The notes under the pieces are model-generated. The model saw only the letters and a list, made by a program, of their open reading frames with translations. It searched no databases and was not told the DNA's origin. A program made the translations under genes and the position numbers. From NCBI GenBank assembly GCA_019753125.1, contig JAIELH010000011.1, forward strand, positions 62,001-126,000: a DNA stretch of 64,000 nucleotides, given 5' to 3'. Origin of the DNA: Gallionellaceae bacterium. GTDB lineage: Bacteria > Pseudomonadota > Gammaproteobacteria > Burkholderiales > Gallionellaceae. Every line of letters begins with the position of its first letter. The first letter of the stretch is position 1. This document shows, piece by piece, positions 9,269 to 46,867 of the stretch.

Positions 9269-9455
9269 GGGAGCCTCTAAAAATCCACATTTCATCCCAA
9301 CTGCTACGTTGCGGAAGAAATTTCTTGCTTACATATCAAAATATATGCGGCGCGGCAAAACGAAGTTTCAGTGTAGGGTAACCTTCAGGTTAGCCGGAAC
9401 TAAAATTTCTTCCGCGCCTTGCATTTGGGCGAACTCTGAATTTTTAGAGGCTCCC
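9269..9455. mobile_element. MITE-like element with 16-bp perfect terminal inverted repeats
   Basis: 187 bp bounded by GGGAGCCTCTAAAAAT (9269-9284) and its exact inverse (9440-9455), flanked on both sides by ATTT, a possible 4-bp target duplication. The interior holds a second inverted pair around aagaaatttctt/aaatttctt and no reading frame. It lies 2 nt before the GTPase start codon, and its end supplies AGAGG at the right distance for translation initiation. Related copies are at 11533-11800 and, partially, 61297-61329. Confidence 0.75.
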
Positions 9456-9533
9456 ATTTGGCATGTTTTTCTGATTAAAGGCGGATTTTACTCCGTACGG
9501 CTCGCCATCACCTGATAAAAACTTGCAGGTGTG

Positions 9534-10250
9534 TCAGTCAGGCTTCAGCAGCGCCAGTTGTGCCGCGTCGAGATAACACCATGCGCCCCCGGCAAGCCCC
9601 AACTCGTCGAGTTTCAATCTGCCGATCTGCGCACGGTGCAGCGCTGCGCAGTGGTTGCCGGCGGCGGCCAGCATGCGTTTGACCTGATGGTATTTGCCTT
9701 GCTCCAGCACGATCTCGATCCGGTGTGTATCGACGATGCGGCAGCTCACCGCCGCCAGCGGCGCAGGCTCGTCATGCAGTTTCACCCCGGCCAGCAATCG
9801 TGCGGCCAGCTCCGGCGTGGCGGCTTCAGCAGTCGTGGCGACATAAACTTTCGGCACATGGTGTTTGGGCGAGGATTGTTTGTGGATGAACGGCCCGTCG
9901 TCCGACATCAGCAGCAGGCCGGTGGTGTCGTGGTCGAGGCGTCCGACCGGCTGCACGTCGCGCCGCGCAAATTGTTCCGGCAGGATAGTTAGCACACCGG
10001 GATGGTGGCTGGCCTTGCGCGAGCATTCGAAACCGGCCGGTTTGTTCAGTGCGATATAGACATGCTTGCGGTATGTCCACGGCTCGCCGAAGATTGTGAA
10101 TTCAAGGTTGCCGGTCTCGATGGCGGCGCGGCTGTCCCGAATGACATTGCCGGCGATGCTCACTTCCCCGCCGGCAACCAATTCGCTGCACCACTTGCGC
10201 GTGCCAAAGCCCTGCGATTGCAGGATACGATCCAGAGTTAGCTTGCTCAT
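9534..10250 (-). CDS. RsuA/RluB-type pseudouridine synthase
   Basis: 238 residues. An N-terminal S4-like RNA-binding domain (R-I-L-Q-S-Q-G-F-G-T-R-K, about 5-60) precedes the synthase domain with the catalytic aspartate motif G-R-L-D-H-D-T-T-G-L-L-L. Later G-K-Y-H-Q-V-K-R-M-L-A-A-A-G-N is the conserved closing motif. It isomerises a uridine in rRNA, probably 16S as in RsuA. The ATG at 10250 is the domain start; longer upstream frame is non-coding. Confidence 0.88.
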   Translation of the reverse strand: MSKLTLDRILQSQGFGTRKWCSELVAGGEVSIAGNVIRDSRAAIETGNLEFTIFGEPWTYRKHVYIALNKPAGFECSRKASHHPGVLTILPEQFARRDVQPVGRLDHDTTGLLLMSDDGPFIHKQSSPKHHVPKVYVATTAEAATPELAARLLAGVKLHDEPAPLAAVSCRIVDTHRIEIVLEQGKYHQVKRMLAAAGNHCAALHRAQIGRLKLDELGLAGGAWCYLDAAQLALLKPD

Positions 10251-10382
10251 GGCGTGACTGTAGCAGAAACGCCGTAATTTTCTGGCATAGTGCAGCAACA
10301 GCGTTGCGTAAAACATGCTGGCTAAGCGCTTCATGCGGATATAGACTACGCATATCCTTAACCGTAAGAAAGACGCGGCACT

Positions 10383-11486
10383 ATGACAAACATTCAGGCT
10401 TTGACCTACCCGGTTATACATGACCGCGAGGCGTTGTGCGAATTTGCCGATGTATTGCTGGACCGCGCGCCGGAGATCGAAAAAAACATGGCCAAACTGA
10501 GCCATGATTCTTCCAACCGTGTGGTGGTTGCGGATATTTTCCGCGCGCTGCACAACATCAAGGGTGATGCCGCACTGTGCAAAGTCGAAATAGCGGGCCT
10601 GATCGCGCACCCGATCGAATCGCTGTTGACCCGTTTGCGCTCTGGCGAAGTACGTTACACCCAGCTGTTGGGCGAAGTGATATTGCTTGCTGTGGACCGG
10701 CTTGAGCTGGCGATCGAAGCGCTGGTAGCGGACAGGCCGGTGGCGCACCTGAAACTGGTAGCGCTGGTGGATGGTCTGGAGCAGATGGGCCAGGCGCCCC
10801 AAGCCAGTCTTGATGCTGCGGCTGCCAAGGTAATCAAATCGGTCACAGGATTTCAGCCACAGGCGACGCTACGAAGTTCAATCGACAAGCTGCCCGATCC
10901 GGGAAAATCAAAGAACAGCATGGCGGCCGATCTGCTGTTCTTTCGTTCTCTTGCCTTGCAGTTTGAAACGCATTCACCAATGTTCAAAGGGCGCGCCGCG
11001 CGCATCCATCAACTGGCCCTGGACACCAATCGTGAGGCAAATTCTCCGGTGGATGCGACGCAACTGGAGGCGGCGGTCTATATGCACGATGTGGGCATGA
11101 TGTTTTTGTCAGAATCCATATGGCTTAAAGTGGGTAACATCAGCGATGAGGAGCGCAGTATCCTCCACACACATTCCGGACTCGGCGCCGGTTTGCTGGA
11201 GCGTATGGATGGCTGGAAGGGAGCGGCGGAAATGGTGCATCAGCACCACGAAATGTGGAATGGGGCAGGTTATCCGGATGGTTTGCAAGGCGACAAAATT
11301 TGTCCGGGCGCAAAGATTCTTGCGATCGTGGACGCCTTTGAGGCAGTCACGCTCAAACACAGTACGCGCGGGCATAATCGCTCCGTACTGCGCGCTATTG
11401 CCGAAGTCAATGCCTGTGATAGCCAGTTTGCACCGGAATGGATCGAGCCGTTCAATGCCGTTATCCGGCGCATGATCGAACATTAG
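10383..11486 (+). CDS. HPt-HD-GYP fusion signalling protein
   Basis: 367 residues, two domains. Residues about 15-115 form a histidine phosphotransfer four-helix bundle with the phospho-accepting His57 in H-N-I-K-G-D-A. Residues about 185-360 are an HD-GYP domain: H209, H235-D236, H264, H288-H289-E290, G-A-G-Y-P-D-G (294-300) and D317. HD-GYP proteins degrade cyclic di-GMP; here the usual D-I-G-K is D-V-G-M, so activity is uncertain. The arrangement suggests phosphorelay control of c-di-GMP turnover. No signal peptide or membrane segment. Apparently monocistronic, next to a MITE. Confidence 0.85.
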   Translation: MTNIQALTYPVIHDREALCEFADVLLDRAPEIEKNMAKLSHDSSNRVVVADIFRALHNIKGDAALCKVEIAGLIAHPIESLLTRLRSGEVRYTQLLGEVILLAVDRLELAIEALVADRPVAHLKLVALVDGLEQMGQAPQASLDAAAAKVIKSVTGFQPQATLRSSIDKLPDPGKSKNSMAADLLFFRSLALQFETHSPMFKGRAARIHQLALDTNREANSPVDATQLEAAVYMHDVGMMFLSESIWLKVGNISDEERSILHTHSGLGAGLLERMDGWKGAAEMVHQHHEMWNGAGYPDGLQGDKICPGAKILAIVDAFEAVTLKHSTRGHNRSVLRAIAEVNACDSQFAPEWIEPFNAVIRRMIEH

Positions 11487-38245: not shown

Positions 38246-38887
38246 TCAATTCTTGGCATCCACCAGATCATGTGCAATGGCATAGTGAACCGCCTCGGCG
38301 TTATTCTTGAAACCCATTTTCTCCATCATCCGCGCACGGTAAACGCTGACCGTCTTGGGGCTGAGCACCATGATTTCGGATATCTCTGTCAGCGATTTTC
38401 CGGAAGCCATCAGACACAGGGTCTGGTATTCGCGGTTGGATAAATTCTGGTGCATCAATTCCTGCGATTCGCCGATCAGGTTGCTCAGCAACTGTTCGGC
38501 CAGCGGCGCGCTGATATATTTTTTTCCGTCGATGACCTGTTGAATTGCGCCGACCAGTTTTTCCGGTGCGCTTTGCTTGTTGATATAGCCCATCGCACCG
38601 GCTTTCAGCGCACGTACGCCATATTGCTCTTCAGGGTACATGCTCAGCACGATGATCTTGATGTCGGGGTGCTCGGACTTGAGCTGCTTCAGCACATCTA
38701 TGCCGTGTTTGTCCGACAGGGAAATATCCAGCAACACCAGGTCGAAGCTCTGTTCGCGCACCATATCGATGGCCTGCATGCCGGTTTCGGCCTCGCCTTT
38801 GACGTGGACATCCGGGCTTTCTTCAAGCAGCATTTTCAGACCCTTGCGGATCAGCGCGTGATCATCTACGACGAGGACGTTAATCAT
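38246..38887 (-). CDS. NarL/FixJ-type response regulator
   Basis: 213 residues. Receiver with acidic pair D8-D9 and phospho-acceptor D54 (V-L-L-D-I-S-L), then a LuxR-type HTH at about 145-205 (S-N-R-E-Y-Q-T-L-C-L-M-A-S-G-K-S, S-P-K-T-V-S-V-Y-R-A). It overlaps the upstream kinase gene by 4 nt (ATGA), so the pair is a cognate system. Confidence 0.95.
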   Translation of the reverse strand: MINVLVVDDHALIRKGLKMLLEESPDVHVKGEAETGMQAIDMVREQSFDLVLLDISLSDKHGIDVLKQLKSEHPDIKIIVLSMYPEEQYGVRALKAGAMGYINKQSAPEKLVGAIQQVIDGKKYISAPLAEQLLSNLIGESQELMHQNLSNREYQTLCLMASGKSLTEISEIMVLSPKTVSVYRARMMEKMGFKNNAEAVHYAIAHDLVDAKN

Positions 38888-40008
38888 ATTGATGTTTCAC
38901 CAAACAATGCCTGCTGCGGCGTTTCTTCCTTGAGCGGAACGAATATCGCGATTTGCGTTCCTTTACCCAGCGTGCTGGCAATTTTAACCGTGCCGCCGAG
39001 ATGCGCGACACGTTCATGGATGCCGCGCAATCCGAATGAGCGTGGCTTGTTGCGCGCAGTATCGCTGATCCCGACACCGTCGTCGGAAATAATCAGTTCG
39101 AGGTGGTCAGTGCCTTTGACGATCTCGATCTGGATATGCTTCGCATGGGCGTGCTTCAGGATGTTGTTCAGGGTTTCCTGGCAAATGCGGAACAGCGTGA
39201 TCGAATAAGCTTCAGGCAGGTCGATGCTTTCCTGGGATTTGATGATGGTGCAGGAAATGCCGCTGCGTTTGCTGAACTCCTGCGCCTCGATCTCGATTGC
39301 GGCGATGATGCCGAAGCAGTCCAGGAAGCCGGGGCGCAAACTGTGCGCCAGATCGCTCGCGGAAGTGATGGCGCGGTTCACCAGTTCTTCTATGGTTTTT
39401 GCCTTGTCGACAAGCTTGTTGTTGTCCTTGGGCAGACGTTGCATCATCCACGACAAGTCCATCTTGATCGCGGTGAGCAGGCTGCCGATTTCATCGTGAA
39501 CTTCGCGGGCGATGCGCAACCGTTCCTGCTCCTTGGCATCCTGGATATGCGATGACAACTCCAGCAATTGCTGCTGGGCGCGCTTGACTTCCATCTCGCC
39601 CAGCTTGCTTTGCGTGGTGTTGAGCATGATGCCTTCCCAGCGCAACATGCCGTTTTGCGTATCCTGCGGGGTGGCGCCAAGACTGATCCATTCGGTTGCA
39701 CCATCCGGCAATGTAATGCGCCCTTCCCAATTCCAGAAGCAGCGCATCTGTGCAGATCGTTTCAGAGTCTCCAAAAACGATGGGGCGTCACCGGGCTGAA
39801 CCAGATTAAAAAAGCATGACGCGTCATGCTGCAATTCATCGGGAGTAACGCCAAGCAGTTTGATGCAGCCTTCGCTGACATAAGGGAAAGTGATGGAGCC
39901 GTCTTCCTGAAGTTCGATTTGACAAGCCATCCCGGGCAGGCTGGCGATAAACCCCTGCAATTTGTCCGGCTGTGTGTTGCCCGTCTGGGTGAGCGAATTT
40001 TCTGGCAT
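38884..40008 (-). CDS. PAS-containing HisKA_3 sensor histidine kinase
   Basis: 374 residues from the ATG at 40008 (a TTG at 40044 is possible). PAS-like domain at about 15-140, dimerisation/phosphoacceptor helix with R-E-V-H-D-E-I-G (the H is phosphorylated), and HATPase with S-D-D-G-V-G-I and F-G-L-R-G-I-H-E-R-V. NarX/DegS class; no transmembrane helix, so a cytoplasmic signal is sensed. Divergent from the acyl-carrier-protein operon with 195 nt between starts, making that operon a plausible target. Confidence 0.92.
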   Translation of the reverse strand: MPENSLTQTGNTQPDKLQGFIASLPGMACQIELQEDGSITFPYVSEGCIKLLGVTPDELQHDASCFFNLVQPGDAPSFLETLKRSAQMRCFWNWEGRITLPDGATEWISLGATPQDTQNGMLRWEGIMLNTTQSKLGEMEVKRAQQQLLELSSHIQDAKEQERLRIAREVHDEIGSLLTAIKMDLSWMMQRLPKDNNKLVDKAKTIEELVNRAITSASDLAHSLRPGFLDCFGIIAAIEIEAQEFSKRSGISCTIIKSQESIDLPEAYSITLFRICQETLNNILKHAHAKHIQIEIVKGTDHLELIISDDGVGISDTARNKPRSFGLRGIHERVAHLGGTVKIASTLGKGTQIAIFVPLKEETPQQALFGETSI

Positions 40009-40174
40009 CAGATGGAAAGCCGCTTGGTTTTTCAATGTAGGCAAATTGCTACGCCAAAGGTTCGTGAGATTACTACATCAGCGCAAATTCCGGCAACTTT
40101 TCGGAGTTGGCGGCTTGGTTTTTTGGTTTGTTTGGCACGCCCCATTTGCATGCCGCGAATTGAAGTTTTGTTTC

Positions 40175-40203: not shown

Positions 40204-40464
40204 ATGCAAGCAACGATGGGTTCCCTGCAAACCATACAGAACATGATGTCCAGTCAATTTGACCTCAAACTGGAGGATCTGGCGCCCGATGCCACCCTGG
40301 AAAGCTTGGGGCTGGACTCGCTATCGGTGATCGAGTTCATGTTCAATCTTGAAGATGAATTGAAGATCAAGCTGCCTGAGGAACGGGTCGAGATTAAAAC
40401 CATCCGGGATGTGGCGAACCTTGTGGACAAAATCGTTGCCGGACAAAAAGGCGGGGTGCAATAG
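40204..40464 (+). CDS. Acyl carrier protein of an uncharacterised lipid-like cluster
   Basis: 86 residues (82 if the second ATG at 40216 is used). Four-helix ACP with the phosphopantetheine serine in L-G-L-D-S-L (Ser39), acidic helix II and E-R-V-E-I-K-T-I-R-D-V. It is not the housekeeping fab cluster ACP; it lies 7 nt before a dedicated ketosynthase. It should carry acyl intermediates for the cluster 40.2-46.9 kb. Confidence 0.92.
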   Translation: MQATMGSLQTIQNMMSSQFDLKLEDLAPDATLESLGLDSLSVIEFMFNLEDELKIKLPEERVEIKTIRDVANLVDKIVAGQKGGVQ

Positions 40465-40471
40465 GCTGCGT

Positions 40472-41710
40472 ATGGGACGCCGCGTAGTCATTACCGGGCT
40501 GGGCATTATTTCTCCGGTTGGCAAAACCCTTGGGGAATTTTTCAGCAACCTGATGGCGGGGCATTCCGGCATCAAGCGCCTGCAAACCGGTTTCGTCGAA
40601 AAGCTCTCGATTCGCATCGGCGCGCCGGTAGATAACTTCAACCCCGGCGATTACTTCAGCAAAATACAGCTTACCGGCATCGAGCGCTTCAGCCAGTTCG
40701 CGCTGGTTGCCGCAGAACAGGCCGTACAAGATGCGCAACTGGCATTAAGCGAAGCGGGGCAACCGCGCGCCGGGATATGCATGGGTTCATGCATGGGTGG
40801 AGCGGGCGCACTGGAAGAAGCCTACGTGGAATTGCTCAAGCATGACAATTTGCGCATCAAACCGCTCACTGTGCTGCTTAACATGAACAACGCGGCAGCT
40901 TCGCACATATCCATCAAGTATCACCTGCAAGGCCCGAACATGACTTATGCGTCGGCCTGTTCCTCTTCGGCAATTGCCATTGGCGAGGCTTATCGCCAGA
41001 TCAAGCATGGCTACGCAGACGTGATGCTGGCGGGAGGTTCCGAGGCGATGCTTACATATGGCGCGATGAAGGCATGGGAATCCTTGCGCACACTCGCGCA
41101 GGAAGACCAAAACGACGCCGGCGCGTCCTGCAAACCTTTTGCAAAAAACCGCAGCGGGCTGGTGCTCGGCGAAGGCGCGGCGGTATTGGTGCTGGAAGAT
41201 GCCGAGCACGCCGTCAAGCGCGGCGCAAGGATTTATGCGGAACTGGCCGGCTACAATTGCTCGTCCGACTCCAGCCATATCACCAAGCCCCACGCTGCCG
41301 GACAGGCAAGCACGATGCGCAACGCACTGCATGAGGCTCAATTACAACCGCAGGATATCGGCTACATCAATGCGCACGGCACGGCCACATTGGCGGGCGA
41401 CATCGAAGAAACACATGCGATCAAGCAGGTGTTTGGCGCGCAAGCTGCCAACATTCCGGTCAGCTCGACAAAATCCATGCACGGGCACCTGATGGGCGCA
41501 GCCGGTGCAGTTGAATTCATCGCGGCAGTATTGGCTTTACAACACCACGCGATACCACCTACCATCAACCTGCATGAGCCTGACCCGGAATGCGATCTGG
41601 ATTACGTGCCCAACCAAGGGCGAACGGACGTTAAACTGAACGCGGTCATGTCCAACTCGTTTGCGTTCGGGGGCGGTAATGCCGTGTTGATTGCGAAGCG
41701 TTTTTCATAA
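40472..41710 (+). CDS. FabF-like beta-ketoacyl-ACP synthase
   Basis: 412 residues, thiolase fold. The triad is intact: Cys163 (S-A-C-S-S-S), His302 (A-H-G-T-A-T) and His337 (S-M-H-G-H), with Lys334, so it should be a condensing enzyme rather than a chain-length factor. C-terminal N-S-F-A-F-G-G-G-N is standard. It extends or primes an acyl chain on the adjacent ACP. The next genes suggest the chain goes to a membrane amine or amino lipid rather than to ordinary fatty acid. Confidence 0.92.
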   Translation: MGRRVVITGLGIISPVGKTLGEFFSNLMAGHSGIKRLQTGFVEKLSIRIGAPVDNFNPGDYFSKIQLTGIERFSQFALVAAEQAVQDAQLALSEAGQPRAGICMGSCMGGAGALEEAYVELLKHDNLRIKPLTVLLNMNNAAASHISIKYHLQGPNMTYASACSSSAIAIGEAYRQIKHGYADVMLAGGSEAMLTYGAMKAWESLRTLAQEDQNDAGASCKPFAKNRSGLVLGEGAAVLVLEDAEHAVKRGARIYAELAGYNCSSDSSHITKPHAAGQASTMRNALHEAQLQPQDIGYINAHGTATLAGDIEETHAIKQVFGAQAANIPVSSTKSMHGHLMGAAGAVEFIAAVLALQHHAIPPTINLHEPDPECDLDYVPNQGRTDVKLNAVMSNSFAFGGGNAVLIAKRFS

Positions 41711-41797
41711 CCTGCCTTCGTTTCATCCGCACGAGAAACTGCCGCCCGGAATTGCAGGGTCGGACTACCGCAAATACAACAAACCAGAATCGAACAG

Positions 41798-42223
41798 ATG
41801 CCCGACCCAACACCACATACCCACGGACTGACACGCGGGCTTGCCTTCGGGCTGGCACTCGCGGTTATTCTGGATACTGCCGGGCAGTTGCTGTGGAAAT
41901 TTGCCGTCGAGCGCCTTCCGGATACGCCTGCCTTTTGGCCAACCATCGAAGCGGTGGCGCAACAGCCCTGGTTCCTGGCTGTGATAGCCGTATTCCTCTG
42001 CCAGCTTTTCGTTTGGTTGAAGGTGCTTGAAAATGCCGATCTGAGCTTTGCCCAACCCATTACCTCGTTGAGTTACCTCACTGTTTGCGGTTTTTCCTGG
42101 ATGCTGTTCGACGATCATATCGGCCCGCTAAAGGGCGTAGGCATTTTGTGTGTGCTGGCGGGAGTGTTGCTCATCAGCCGGGGCAAACGGCAAACACACG
42201 CCGACCCGGACGCACAAGCATGA
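41798..42223 (+). CDS. Half-size DMT/SMR-like membrane protein (ArnE/F-like), subunit 1
   Basis: 141 residues with four hydrophobic segments (about 15-35, 55-75, 80-100, 108-128). The first helix holds D26 (V-I-L-D-T-A-G-Q-L-L-W-K-F), matching the acidic substrate residue of SMR transporters. ArnE/ArnF of this type flip undecaprenyl-linked aminoarabinose; others export small cations. Overlaps subunit 2 by ATGA, so they probably form an obligate heterodimer. Confidence 0.8.
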   Translation: MPDPTPHTHGLTRGLAFGLALAVILDTAGQLLWKFAVERLPDTPAFWPTIEAVAQQPWFLAVIAVFLCQLFVWLKVLENADLSFAQPITSLSYLTVCGFSWMLFDDHIGPLKGVGILCVLAGVLLISRGKRQTHADPDAQA

Positions 42224-42552
42224 GTCAGGCGCTGCTTGGCATCGCTCTGGTTATCCTGAATTCGGTTATTGAAGGTTTCGCTCAGGTATGCCTCAAAAAA
42301 TCGACGATTGAACCGCTGCGCAAGCTGTTCTGGGTAGGGGTGGGGATCATGTTTTTCATCATCGAAGCGCTCCTGTACACGGCCGCCCTCCAATGGTTGC
42401 AACTCAGCACCGCGTATACCTTGGGCGCCCTCAGCTTTGTTGCCGTCACGACCTTCTCTCACTTCATGCTGAGCGAGAAAATCGACCTGGAGCGCTGGGC
42501 CGGCTTAGCCCTGATACTTTTCGGATGCACACTGATTGCAATACAAAAATGA
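42220..42552 (+). CDS. Half-size DMT/SMR-like membrane protein (ArnE/F-like), subunit 2
   Basis: 110 residues, four helices; the acidic residue is E18 in N-S-V-I-E-G-F-A-Q-V-C-L-K-K. Length and helix pattern match SMR family members. Coupled by ATGA to both neighbours (subunit 1 upstream and the FemAB-like gene downstream). Confidence 0.82.
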   Translation: MSQALLGIALVILNSVIEGFAQVCLKKSTIEPLRKLFWVGVGIMFFIIEALLYTAALQWLQLSTAYTLGALSFVAVTTFSHFMLSEKIDLERWAGLALILFGCTLIAIQK

Positions 42553-43721
42553 GCGAACCGGTTTTTGCCGTTGAGTGGGTTAACTCCGAGGCTGATATAC
42601 CCCAAACCATGTGGGATGCTTGCTTCCCTCCCCCGCTCGAAGGTCGCTGGTGGTACCGGGCGCTTGAACGTTGCGGCATCGAAGAGCAGTTCCAGTTCAT
42701 GTACGGGGTGGTGCGCATGCGGGATCAACCCGTGGCGATCGCGCCCGTCTTCGTGATGGACGTTCCGATCATGCTGGTTCTTCCCCCTTGGCTGCTTCCG
42801 TTTGCCAGATTGGTTGGCCGGGTTGCGCCTTCGCTACTTCACCAGCGGACGCTGTTTGTGGGTTCGCCGTGCTCGGACGAAGGCACGGTCGGGATAGTTC
42901 CCGGCACGGATCGCTTCGCCATTCTGCAATGCGTGCAGCAGGCGCTTCATGCACAAGCCCGCCAGCTCAATGCGCCGATGCTGGTGTGGAAGGATTTCCC
43001 CGCCTCCGGCAACAAGGTGATGGAAGCGTTATCACGCTCGGCTGGCATGTTCCGGATAACCAGTTTTCCCGGCACGATTATCGACCTTCCCGGCATGGCA
43101 ACGGAAAATTATTTTGCCGCACTGAAGGCATCGCGTCGCCATTTGCTGAGGAAAAAACTGCGGCGCAGTGCGGAAAATGTGGCCGTGGATATCGATATCA
43201 AACAGCAACCGGACGCAGCAAGCATGGACGAGATATTCGGCTTGTTCTGGCAGACCTATAAAAAAGCCGCCACCAAGTTCGAGCGCCTCAACCGCCGGTT
43301 TTTCGATTTGATTGCGCGTGAGCCACAGTCGTATTTCATCATTTTGCGCGAACACGCCACGGGAGAATTGATCGCATTCATGCTCTGTTTCGCATTTCGC
43401 GACCGCGTTATCAACAAGTTTATCGGTATCGATTACCGGCGCCCGAAAGAATGGTATTTGTATTTCCGGCTGTGGAAAGCCGTGCTGGAATGGTCATATT
43501 CACGTGGGGCGCGATCGATACAAAGCGGGCAAACCGGGTACGCCCCCAAAATCGAACTGGGGCATAAGCTCGTGCCGCTGACCAATTATTGCGCCCACCG
43601 CAATCCGCTGGTTCACCGGATATACGCGGCAGTCGCCCGCACCGTATCCTGGCAAACGCTGGATGCGGATCTCGCCCGGCATATCGCGGCACACCCTGAG
43701 GACATGCCGGAAAACATGTAA
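42549..43721 (+). CDS. FemAB/GNAT-like acyltransferase
   Basis: 390 residues. Resembles the peptidoglycan-type FemAB/COG3146 acyltransferases: duplicated GNAT folds, a basic helical segment with S-R-R-H-L-L-R-K-K-L-R-R, and C-terminal F-I-G-I-D-Y-R-R-P-K-E-W-Y-L-Y-F-R-L-W-K followed by Q-S-G-Q-T-G-Y-A-P-K. Such enzymes transfer amino-acyl or acyl groups to an amine. In this cluster it could couple the ACP-bound chain to an amine. Coupled to subunit 2 by ATGA; last gene of the first sub-operon. Confidence 0.75.
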   Translation: MSEPVFAVEWVNSEADIPQTMWDACFPPPLEGRWWYRALERCGIEEQFQFMYGVVRMRDQPVAIAPVFVMDVPIMLVLPPWLLPFARLVGRVAPSLLHQRTLFVGSPCSDEGTVGIVPGTDRFAILQCVQQALHAQARQLNAPMLVWKDFPASGNKVMEALSRSAGMFRITSFPGTIIDLPGMATENYFAALKASRRHLLRKKLRRSAENVAVDIDIKQQPDAASMDEIFGLFWQTYKKAATKFERLNRRFFDLIAREPQSYFIILREHATGELIAFMLCFAFRDRVINKFIGIDYRRPKEWYLYFRLWKAVLEWSYSRGARSIQSGQTGYAPKIELGHKLVPLTNYCAHRNPLVHRIYAAVARTVSWQTLDADLARHIAAHPEDMPENM

Positions 43722-43919
43722 GGCGCAGGTCTCATTTTTGAACCAGATGACCACTCCGCAAGCAAAACTTTTACTTTGCCTGAACTTATTTACCAGACAA
43801 CCGCCTAATTGTTCCAGCTTACTCATTTTATCTGTACAATTACAGCCTGATACGCCTTCAATGTGCGGCACTTCGCCGTATTTAGCGGCAATTCATAACG
43901 CAAAAAGATCAAGAATTTT

Positions 43920-44588
43920 ATGCTGTTTGTAATCGATTTCGACGGAACCCTCGCCCGGAAAGATACGGTTGACGCGATGCTTGAAAAGTTCGCGCCCGCC
44001 GACTGGGAAGATATCGAACAGGAGTGGCTGGCTGGCCGTATAACAGCGGTGGAATGCATGCAGCAGCAGATTCGCATGGTCAAGGCCGACCATATCGCGA
44101 TCGAGAATTTTTTTCGCGCCATTGAACTGGACGATGCTTTTCTGCCGTTTTACCGGCATGTAAGCGCCTTTGCCAAGGTGGCCATTGTCAGCGACGGACT
44201 GGACCATGCGATCCATGTCGCCACAAAACACGCCGGCTTGCCCGAGATTCCGGCCTATGCCAACCGCCTGCATTTCGTGCCCGAAGGCATCGATATTTCC
44301 TTCCCTCATATCAATCCGCAATGCAATGCCGGCAACGGCGTATGCAAATGCGCCGTGGCGCGTGATCTGTCCGGAATGCAAGACATGCCGGTAGTGCTGG
44401 TCGGTGATGGAAAATCGGATGCCTGTCTGGCGCGCAGTGCCGATGTTGTTTTTGCCAAGAGTTCGCTGCTCAGGCATTGCTGTGAACAAGGCATCGCTCA
44501 CATTCCTTTCGATACCTTCGACGACGTGCTAACCACCGTAAAAACATGGAACACATCTTTACCGCAGCAGGCTGTTAATCTGGCTTGA
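43920..44588 (+). CDS. HAD-IB phosphatase (MtnX/SerB-like)
   Basis: 222 residues. HAD motif I D-F-D-G-T (D6, D8), motif II V-S-D-G, motif IV G-D-G-K-S-D. The cap and the C-N-A-G-N-G-V-C-K-C segment, rich in Cys, resemble MtnX and phosphoserine-phosphatase relatives. Substrate unknown; it may remove a phosphate from a cluster intermediate. The 198-nt AT-rich gap before it holds TACAAT at about 43839 and may carry its own promoter. Confidence 0.82.
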   Translation: MLFVIDFDGTLARKDTVDAMLEKFAPADWEDIEQEWLAGRITAVECMQQQIRMVKADHIAIENFFRAIELDDAFLPFYRHVSAFAKVAIVSDGLDHAIHVATKHAGLPEIPAYANRLHFVPEGIDISFPHINPQCNAGNGVCKCAVARDLSGMQDMPVVLVGDGKSDACLARSADVVFAKSSLLRHCCEQGIAHIPFDTFDDVLTTVKTWNTSLPQQAVNLA

Positions 44589-44624
44589 GCGCTTTCCCCG
44601 ATATTTCACAGTAAACAGACCATC

Positions 44625-45998
44625 ATGGATCAGAAAATCATCACGCTGCTCGAAAAAGACGCCCGCTATTGTTCCTACGGCGATACGGTGCACTATGCCG
44701 ATCCGCCCAAGGTGTTTGCTTCCTGCGACGGCAGCTACCTGTACGACGATGACAACACGCCGTATCTCGACCTACAAATGTGGTATTCGGCGGTCAATTT
44801 CGGCTACAAGAACCGCCGCCTGAACGATGTGCTGAAGCGCCAGATCGACACGCTGCCGCAGCTGGCCTGCCAGTATTTGCACCGCGAAAAAGTCGAACTG
44901 GCCGAGACGATCTGCGCCTACATCGAGAAAAAATACGGCGTAAAGGGGCGCGTGCATTTCAATGTCGGCGGCACGGCGGCGGTCGATGATTCGCTGAAGA
45001 TCGTGCGCAACCATACCGGCAAGACGCAGCAATTCGCCTTCATGGGCGGCTATCACGGCCGCTCGCTGGGCGCCTCGGCGATCACTTCCAGCTACCGCTA
45101 CCGCCGCCGTTACGGCCACTTCTCCGACCGCGCGCATTTTGTGCCGTTCCCCTACTGCTTCCGCTGCCCGTATGGCATGAAAAAGGAATCCTGCGGCATG
45201 TATTGCCACCACGAGTTCGAGCGTCTGTTCGAGACCGAGTACAACTCGTTCTGGGACGACAAGGTGGGCAAATGCGAATTCGGCGCGTTCTACATCGAGA
45301 CGATCCAGGGCACCGGCGGCTACGTCGTGCCGCCCGAAGGCTACATGCAGAAGCTGGCGCAGACGCTCAGGGAGCGCGGCATCCTGCTGGTCGTCGACGA
45401 GATTCAGATGGGGGTGTACCGCACCGGCAAGCTGTGGTCGTGGGAAAACTTCGGCATCGTTCCGGATGTGTTCACGTTCGGCAAGGCGATCACGAACGGC
45501 CTGAACCCGATTTCCGGCATCTGGGCGCGCGAAGAACTGATTTCCCCGGAGAAATTCCCGCCCGGCTCCACCCATTCGACGTTCGCCTCCAATCCGCTCG
45601 GCACGGCCTGCGCGCTGGAAGTGCTGCGCATGACCCAGGAGCATGACTTCGAGCCCGGCATCCGCGCCCGGGGCGCCTATTTCCTGAAGAAGCTCGAAGA
45701 GCTCAAGAGCCGCTGGAAAGTGGTCGGCGATGTCAGCGGCATGGGGCTCGCGCTGCGTATCGAACTGTGCGAAACAGACGGATTCACCCCGAGCCGTAAA
45801 CTGGCAGACCGTGTCTTCAATGAAGGACTCAAGGGCGACCTGCCGGTCGGCGACAAGAAATACGGGCTGGTGCTGGATATCGGTGGCTACTATAAGAACG
45901 TCATCACGCTGGCGCCGTCGTTGCTGATTTCAGAGGAAGAGATTGATCTCGGCATCCAGTTGTTCGAAATGTTGCTGCGCCGCTGCGGAGCAGAGTAA
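44625..45998 (+). CDS. Class III aminotransferase with a four-cysteine motif
   Basis: 457 residues. PLP Lys287 (T-F-G-K-A-I-T-N-G), Asp258 (V-V-D-E-I-Q-M-G-V) and the G-G-T cofactor loop at 115-117 make it catalytically complete. A cysteine set Cys178-x2-Cys181, Cys190 and Cys194 (P-Y-C-F-R-C-P ... C-G-M-Y-C) occurs where GABA transaminases can bind an interface [2Fe-2S] cluster or zinc. Amino donor and acceptor unknown; in context it may create the amine of the cluster product. Ordinary argD-type function is unlikely because argD is present elsewhere. Confidence 0.85.
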   Translation: MDQKIITLLEKDARYCSYGDTVHYADPPKVFASCDGSYLYDDDNTPYLDLQMWYSAVNFGYKNRRLNDVLKRQIDTLPQLACQYLHREKVELAETICAYIEKKYGVKGRVHFNVGGTAAVDDSLKIVRNHTGKTQQFAFMGGYHGRSLGASAITSSYRYRRRYGHFSDRAHFVPFPYCFRCPYGMKKESCGMYCHHEFERLFETEYNSFWDDKVGKCEFGAFYIETIQGTGGYVVPPEGYMQKLAQTLRERGILLVVDEIQMGVYRTGKLWSWENFGIVPDVFTFGKAITNGLNPISGIWAREELISPEKFPPGSTHSTFASNPLGTACALEVLRMTQEHDFEPGIRARGAYFLKKLEELKSRWKVVGDVSGMGLALRIELCETDGFTPSRKLADRVFNEGLKGDLPVGDKKYGLVLDIGGYYKNVITLAPSLLISEEEIDLGIQLFEMLLRRCGAE

Positions 45999-46009
45999 AG
46001 CGCATAGTC

Positions 46010-46867
46010 ATGGATTCGGCGATTCGGCAGTGTCTGGGGCCTAACGGCTTCTTCCTGAAGGGCGGCGAAGACGCCGTGCTGTTGGTGCATGGCTTGACCG
46101 GAACCCCAGCGGAGATGCGCGCGATCGCCAACCAGCTCGCCAAGGACGGATTCACAGTCATGTGCCCGAGGTTATCCGGGCATTGCGGCAGCGTCGGGGA
46201 ACTGAAACGCTCGAAGTGGCAGGACTGGTACGGCTCCATCGAACAGGCCTTCGAGGCGCTCAAGCGGGAGCATCCGCGCGTTTATGTGGCCGGTTTGTCG
46301 ATGGGCGCGCTGATCGCGCTCAAGCTGGCGGAAGAAAAAGGGCAACGGGTAAACGGGTTGGGGCTGCTATCCACCACCTTCTTCTACGATGGCTGGAACA
46401 TACCGCATCACCGGCAAAAATTCCTGCTGCCCATCGTGCTGTACAGCCCGCTGCGCTACTTCATGTCATGGCACGAACTTCCGCCCTACGGCATCAAATG
46501 CGAGCGCACGCGCGCCTTCGTACATTCCGTGCTGACGCAACGTGATGCGTTGTCCGCCGAAAAAGTCGGAATTTTCCGTACCCCTGCGGTGACCATCCAT
46601 GAAAGTTTCAAACTGGTCCGCACGGTAAAAAAACTGCTGCCCAGCGTTCATTCACCGACGTTGATCGTGCATTCCACCGAAGATGACATGGCCAGTATAA
46701 AAAATGCGCACTACGTAGCCAGGCACATCTCCTCAGACAAGGTGGAAACCTATTTCGTCGATGACACCTACCACGTGCTGACGCTGGACAAACGCAAGAA
46801 CGATATTGCGCAGCGGCTGGGCGCCTTTTTCAAAAGCTGCGCCACGAGGGAAGCTGCGGCCGTTTGA
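46010..46867 (+). CDS. Alpha/beta hydrolase (carboxylesterase/acyltransferase-like)
   Basis: 285 residues. Oxyanion motif H-G-L-T-G-T-P, nucleophile elbow G-L-S-M-G (Ser97), acid in H-S-T-E-D-D and histidine in D-T-Y-H-V-L-T. Closest in plan to Est30/monoacylglycerol-lipase-like enzymes. It follows the aminotransferase by 11 nt and may release or transfer the acyl chain. Last gene of the presumed cluster. Confidence 0.85.
   Translation: MDSAIRQCLGPNGFFLKGGEDAVLLVHGLTGTPAEMRAIANQLAKDGFTVMCPRLSGHCGSVGELKRSKWQDWYGSIEQAFEALKREHPRVYVAGLSMGALIALKLAEEKGQRVNGLGLLSTTFFYDGWNIPHHRQKFLLPIVLYSPLRYFMSWHELPPYGIKCERTRAFVHSVLTQRDALSAEKVGIFRTPAVTIHESFKLVRTVKKLLPSVHSPTLIVHSTEDDMASIKNAHYVARHISSDKVETYFVDDTYHVLTLDKRKNDIAQRLGAFFKSCATREAAAV

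Follow-up and report, generated by a model that had tools for sequence, protein, structure and literature searches.

The stretch of DNA analyzed here (the window, 64,000 nucleotides of contig JAIELH010000011.1 from a Gallionellaceae bacterium) harbors at 40204–46867 eight genes on the plus strand, which encode an acyl carrier protein (ACP), a ketosynthase (KS), two half-size SMR-type membrane proteins (SMR1 and SMR2), a FemAB-like transferase (Fem), a HAD phosphatase (HAD), a class III aminotransferase (AT) and an alpha/beta hydrolase. An earlier note on this DNA had already called these same-strand genes and their families, and both are borne out by the reading frames and Pfam. We tentatively interpret the locus, with a probability of just under one half (about 0.48), as the Gallionella form of a conserved and mobile pathway to an amino-alcohol-based lipid, which is N-acylated and flipped. 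The best explanation of its composition is a core of AT, HAD, Fem and the hydrolase, often accompanied by an ArnE/ArnF-like half-transporter pair. Chance alone would not account for the gene set, since its members are found side by side in different classes of the phylum; its gene content, the conserved motifs and the joint presence of AT, HAD and Fem in genomes are directly supported.

The aminotransferase recurs with its partner genes in genomes and on plasmids

AT (44625–45998, 457 aa; PF00202, E=5e-70) belongs by alignment and tree to a subclade with four cysteines (Cys4) and carries PYCFRCPYGMKKESCGMYC in the alignment. It is ~53–67% identical to homologues outside the genus, and 188 of the 457 window AT positions are kept in at least 25 of 26 family sequences. 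No NCBIfam cut-off was reached among the 25 best of 69 models, the best of which scored 270.1 of 552 bits, and its sequence places AT in a close-knit family for which the models shown include no NCBIfam equivalog. The four cysteines are present in 11 of 32 ATs, for which one change is needed on the tree (split support 100/98). At E≤1e-60, AT is present in three of 101 genomes, namely its own, G016 of the same genus and G059, and is therefore rare among close relatives. The ATs of the window and G016 (locus L122) are 96% identical, while the neighboring genes reach 76–89% (HAD 89%, SMR1 86%, hydrolase 85%, Fem 83% and SMR2 76%). The most divergent AT (53%), also of the Cys4 type, is located at 9412–10791 of locus L170 in genome G130.

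Across the phylum, AT was found in 26 of 398 sampled genomes including its own (E≤1e-110) and on 34 plasmid records from Rhizobium (16), Agrobacterium (10), Bartonella (5), Sinorhizobium (1), Phyllobacterium (1) and Xanthomonas (1), half of which (17) are predicted to be conjugative. The earlier note had named recurrence of the same set in distant genomes as support for its proposal, and this is what the phylum genomes and the plasmids display.

Genome-wide co-occurrence was assessed in 24 AT-positive and 28 AT-negative genomes, the former taken from 27 (own genome excluded) without the fragmentary or incomplete G244, G248 and G263; HAD is nevertheless present in the loci of G244 and G248. The HAD profile matched 23 of the 24 AT-positive and none of the 28 AT-negative genomes (E≤1e-10), which corresponds to a Fisher P of 7e-14 if relatedness is ignored. 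For Fem, the numbers were 22/24 and 0/28 at E≤1e-80, and 22/24 and 2/28 (a weaker relative) at E≤1e-10; a threshold of E≤1e-90 gives 21/24, the match of G482 lying at 2.5e-90. The hydrolase profile (E≤1e-30) was found in 23/24 AT-positive and 8/28 AT-negative genomes, four of these eight by way of a three-gene unit, Hyd'-ACP-KS, that is described below. Within single genera, G293 of genus g44 contains both AT and HAD while G182 lacks the two genes, and in the genus of the window G016 contains both, whereas the eight other genomes tested are without them. For six genomes (G165, G189, G216, G161, G261 and G291) AT and the top-scoring Fem match lie on different contigs, and the link between AT and Fem is therefore not one of mere adjacency.

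We further compared the gene content of 32 AT loci, comprising 20 from the 25 other phylum genomes, 9 from the 34 plasmids, and those of the window, G016 and G059. Genes were counted by tblastn at E≤1e-4; the counts are lower bounds due to contig ends, several of the contigs being short, and the plasmid loci from rhizobia, as close relatives of one another, do not represent independent cases. The hydrolase is present in 29 loci, HAD in 28, Fem in 23, SMR genes in 21, an arginase-like gene in 19 and ABC genes in 16. Less frequent neighbors are MipA (8, and also in L120), HlyD-type (7), TolC (6), DegT (6), desaturase (4) and CFA synthase (4) genes. Two of the 23 Fem loci (L158 and L159) hold only a Fem-like N-terminal half fused to the hydrolase, and the genome of L158 (G161) has a full Fem on another contig. 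The plasmid of Xanthomonas sacchari carries all eight gene kinds together with arginase-like, DegT and ABC/HlyD/TolC genes, and that of Bartonella sp. HY406 only AT, Fem and the arginase-like gene in the 25 kb examined. The exporter genes of L160 and L164 match the DevA, DevB and DevC models below cut-off, with LolD and RND-adaptor models scoring equally well or better. DevABC-type exporters carry glycolipids.

The arginase-like gene is found near 18 of 21 non-Cys4 ATs but near only one of 11 Cys4 ATs. Its product is an arginase-superfamily protein (e.g. L173:13340–14293, L181:16148–17026 and L174:14541–15422) with very weak similarity to solved agmatinases, and six aligned sequences, that of L181 not among them, contain the motifs GSGD[FY]HH, DNHPD, CGxW and [TS]NWDQG.

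Families and motifs of the core proteins

None of the eight proteins reached an NCBIfam equivalog cut-off among the models shown. HAD (43920–44588, 222 aa; PF12710) is an MtnX-like HAD-IB phosphatase that exceeds the cut-off of the subfamily model TIGR01488 (60.4 bits, cut-off 45) and contains the DxDGT motif within the series DFDGT...SDG...GVCKC...GDGKSD. The solved relatives of its family are MtnX and phosphoserine phosphatase, which act on small phosphate monoesters. A role in methionine salvage was rejected on the basis of the MtnX model TIGR03333, which gave only 99.7 of 303.2 bits. In L157 (10936–12894) the HAD frame comprises 652 aa, and its start is probably over-long because an internal ATG opens a HAD protein of 228 aa.

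Fem (42549–43721, 390 aa) is a FemAB-like/GNAT protein and a predicted N-acyl- or aminoacyl-transferase, with scores above the thresholds of PF04339 (32.7 bits, gathering score 27) and PF13480 (33.1 bits, cut-off 22). The S33-type hydrolase (46010–46867, 285 aa; PF12146) has the nucleophile motif GLSMG and is related to monoacylglycerol lipases, which are its nearest solved structures. Its nucleophile is serine in 20 and cysteine in 9 of 29 loci, the latter being seven loci from Rhizobium, Agrobacterium, Sinorhizobium and Phyllobacterium as well as L158 and L159. Cysteine nucleophiles occur in acyl-transferring alpha/beta hydrolases. In L158 (7364–8965) and L159, both from one genus, the hydrolase frames (538 and 502 codons from stop to stop) run into the FemAB-like N-terminal half (31–32% identity over 142 aa); the fusion in this genus links the functions of hydrolase and transferase.

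SMR1 (41798–42223, 141 aa; PF00892, 34.9 bits) and SMR2 (42220–42552, 110 aa; PF00892, 37.2 bits) are half-size EamA/SMR membrane proteins. The best NCBIfam models are ArnF for SMR1 (52.3 bits, below the cut-off of 99) and ArnE for SMR2 (34.4 bits, below the cut-off of 92). Two SMR genes are found in 19 of the 21 SMR loci, the remaining two being cut by contig ends. By analogy, this pairing suggests a heterodimer as in ArnE/ArnF.

A proposed pathway

From these assignments we infer substrates, product and order of steps as follows. AT would aminate a small carbonyl compound, probably a phosphorylated one, and HAD would then strip the phosphate to yield an amino alcohol. The resulting amine may be N-acylated (or N-aminoacylated) by Fem, and the hydrolase, with its serine or cysteine nucleophile, may transfer or trim a second acyl group. 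The SMR heterodimer would flip the product, which in some genomes might be carried onward by the ABC/HlyD/TolC exporter. Where present, ACP and KS could supply a special acyl chain. An amide on the newly made amine is suggested by the combination of a FemAB/GNAT enzyme with AT, and a phosphorylated intermediate by the presence of HAD in nearly all AT-positive genomes. A lipid bound for the envelope is suggested by the desaturase, CFA synthase, MipA and ABC/HlyD/TolC neighbors, none of which occurs in more than half of the loci.

The ketosynthase and ACP form an accessory module

ACP (40204–40464, 86 aa; PF00550, E=4e-14) contains the phosphopantetheine serine in LGLDSL. KS (40472–41710, 412 aa; PF00109/PF02801, tree) is a FabF-like beta-ketoacyl-ACP synthase with the signature KSMHGH / NSFAFGGGN. 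It retains the Cys, His, Lys and His of KS domains as C163, H302, K334 and H339, which we take to be the catalytic residues. KS passes the broader subfamily model PRK07314 and narrowly misses the housekeeping FabF model TIGR03150 (487.4 of 493.75 bits). In a quick tree it groups with other KS linked to the cluster, in a clade separate from the majority of sampled FabF rows (support 93), and by score and clade it is not assigned to the housekeeping FabF (KAS II). Three rows labeled FabF (L032, L039 and L199) group with the cluster-type KS in this tree. All 36 cluster-linked, stand-alone and related KS of the tree share KxxHGH; among the 24 FabF-labeled rows it is found in 2 (L039 and L047), and KSMTGH is the usual form. 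The cluster-linked KS do not form a single clade: the window KS and that of L120 (L018 was omitted as a copy of L120) group with Gallionella KS, and the other seven are separate.

KS at 77–84% identity occur on eight contigs, five from Gallionella, one from Sideroxydans and two from uncultured Nitrosomonadales. The closest KS (76–84%) are part of the unit Hyd'-ACP-KS and do not have the other cluster genes beside them, as judged from 13 same-genus genomes (4.2-kb loci) and the eight contigs (13 to 21 kb each), which partly represent the same genomes. Such stand-alone units in Gallionella relatives, not adjoined by an AT cluster, are seen at L127:9638–12154 and in loci L002–L014, L021–L027 and L066; the one Gallionella Hyd' aligned has a cysteine nucleophile (GLCIG). 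On the tree, the window KS falls within the KS of these Gallionella units. In G016, Hyd'-ACP-KS is located on one contig and SMR1-SMR2-Fem-HAD-AT-hydrolase on another, and ACP-KS and the latter set are joined in the window. No Hyd' turned up in the genome of the window (2,473,084 bases in 97 contigs, 88% complete), in which the cluster hydrolase is the only family member found.

Among the 32 AT loci, KS is present in nine and ACP in eight. ACP and KS share a locus with HAD and AT in L120, L153, L155, L156, L160, L165 and L181; with the exception of L120, these KS belong to another subclade than that of the window. Because KS occurs in so few AT loci and the window KS nests in the Hyd'-ACP-KS units, the two genes are accessory rather than core, presumably an optional acyl-supply module.

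Gene order and the neighboring two-component system

The junctions between the eight genes measure, in order, 7, 87, -4, -4, 198, 36 and 11 nt, with 4-nt ATGA overlaps at SMR1-SMR2 and SMR2-Fem. The description of five genes linked by 7-nt to ATGA junctions with one 87-nt gap applies to the first five genes, but a 198-nt gap precedes the last three. A promoter and terminator scan gave sites no more numerous than in shuffled sequence.

Divergent to the cluster, a response regulator with a LuxR/GerE-type output domain (38246–38887, minus strand) and a PAS histidine kinase (38884–40044, minus strand) were assigned by Pfam, the kinase start lying 159 nt from that of ACP. A divergent system at the promoter had been noted before, and its position stands, but it is not conserved with the cluster. 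The kinase orthologue of G016 (82%) maps to C1:339909 on the contig that also carries the cluster, ~253 kb away from it. Of ten other genomes searched, three KS-bearing ones (G018, G022 and G029) lack a kinase match at E≤1e-60, and in the other seven it is on another contig than KS or, in G028 (36%), ~41 kb off. No BLAST match at E≤0.01 was obtained between the kinase found at rhizobial loci and that of the window, and for the rhizobial response regulator the similarity (25%) is confined to the receiver part. Since the kinase is not conserved with the cluster, the two-component system is, judging from these comparisons, probably an accidental local neighbor, and regulation of the cluster by it, if any, may be a local feature.

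Alternative explanations

The earlier proposal of an acylated amine or amino-modified lipid that is made and translocated by the cluster is compatible with the families, the product being a prediction; it changes in two respects, as ACP-KS is accessory and the two-component system is not conserved with the cluster. Our reading as an amino-alcohol lipid pathway has several observations to contend with. KS/ACP and SMR genes are missing from many of the 32 loci. The proposed scheme does not account for the arginase-like protein, which the genome of the window lacks. G130 has AT without a HAD, Fem or hydrolase match, and G103 has no Fem match. The only suggestive solved-structure matches of Fem are aminoacyl-tRNA-dependent peptide synthases (E=0.013 and 0.023), and FemAB-like enzymes can use aminoacyl-tRNA. 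An identity of Fem with ceramide synthase (CerS/YghO) was rejected (BLASTP E=3.4, HHalign probability 2.8), YghO being taken from E. coli BL21(DE3) as ECD_02850, the ceramide N-acyltransferase counterpart by gene order.

These Fem matches would suit a small secreted amine natural product, such as a toxin, antimetabolite or signal, made as an amide by AT, HAD and Fem, the last with aminoacyl-tRNA or acyl-ACP as donor, and exported by SMR/EamA and ABC/HlyD/TolC proteins. The patchy, partly plasmid-borne spread with 17 of 34 records predicted conjugative and the lack of KS/ACP in most loci agree with it; however, the desaturase, CFA synthase and MipA neighbors (4 to 8 of 32 loci each) and the monoacylglycerol-lipase-like hydrolase point to a lipid, and we consider this product somewhat unlikely. 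Arn-like attachment of an amino sugar or amino alcohol to an envelope glycolipid, either lipid A or undecaprenyl phosphate, with the SMR pair as ArnE/ArnF-like flippase, would account for ArnF and ArnE as best models and for the DegT-family aminotransferase in 6 of 32 loci. Both SMRs score far below the respective cut-offs, though, the set contains no annotated glycosyltransferase in the nine plasmid loci examined (two are upstream in L184), and KS, ACP and the hydrolase are left unexplained, which renders it distinctly unlikely. Finally, ACP-KS and SMR-SMR-Fem-HAD-AT-hydrolase might be two unrelated modules that became neighbors by accident, as would be implied by their separate contigs in G016 and by the Gallionella loci examined, in which ACP-KS accompanies Hyd' but the remaining genes are absent and among whose KS that of the window nests. 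The sharing of a locus by ACP, KS, HAD and AT in other families, mostly with the other KS subclade, and the cluster hydrolase as sole family member found in an 88% complete genome without a detected Hyd' speak against this, and we regard it as very unlikely.

Relation to known systems

The putative amino-alcohol lipid pathway resembles several known systems in part. It shares two adjacent half-size SMR/EamA genes and the best NCBIfam models with the undecaprenyl-phosphate-Ara4N flippase ArnE/ArnF, but the curated cut-offs are missed widely and no other Arn-type gene is among the eight. Ornithine/aminolipid synthesis (OlsBA, OlsI) would be comparable provided that Fem is an amine N-acyltransferase and a further acyl group is attached by the alpha/beta protein; in contrast to it, Fem matches only PF04339 and PF13480, and the OlsI model gave 18.9 of 385 bits. 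Exosortase/PEP-CTERM clusters hold FemAB-type and alpha/beta hydrolase genes together. This reading was rejected, as no exosortase is among the eight and the window hydrolase reaches 32.5 of 202.75 bits with the hydrolase 2 model; a Rubrivivax paper with a FemAB gene concerns polysaccharide clusters (PMC3684757). Bacterial sphingolipid clusters (spt/acpR/aasR/CerR/CerS) are described with a dedicated ACP, an N-acyltransferase and a potential flippase (PMC9386255, PMC11324152). The window set likewise appears to pair a dedicated ACP with an N-acyltransferase-type gene and a potential flippase, but contains no serine palmitoyltransferase and has AT and HAD instead.

For RtxA, the conversion of DHAP to serinol phosphate and serinol is described as a reaction pair (PMC3222319). 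The amination of a phosphorylated ketone by its aminotransferase domain followed by dephosphorylation would parallel what we propose for AT and HAD, a likeness by reaction only. A serinol-type product is suggested only by this analogy. We therewith arrive at a more specific version, which we hold to be quite unlikely: a new aminolipid class with a transaminated C3 backbone of the serinol/aminopropanediol type, derived from triose phosphate via AT and HAD, N-acylated by Fem, flipped by the SMR heterodimer and disseminated on plasmids through root bacteria and further Pseudomonadota. The earlier note knew of no described pathway with this set, and our full-text literature search, which was not exhaustive, with most subscription journals outside it, returned no paper describing the gene set among the matches listed.

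The co-occurring set spans relatives of Gallionella as well as plasmids of Rhizobium, Agrobacterium, Bartonella and Xanthomonas, half of them predicted conjugative. The set is well suited to lipidomics, which might bring to light a new envelope lipid or a secreted amine of plant-associated bacteria.

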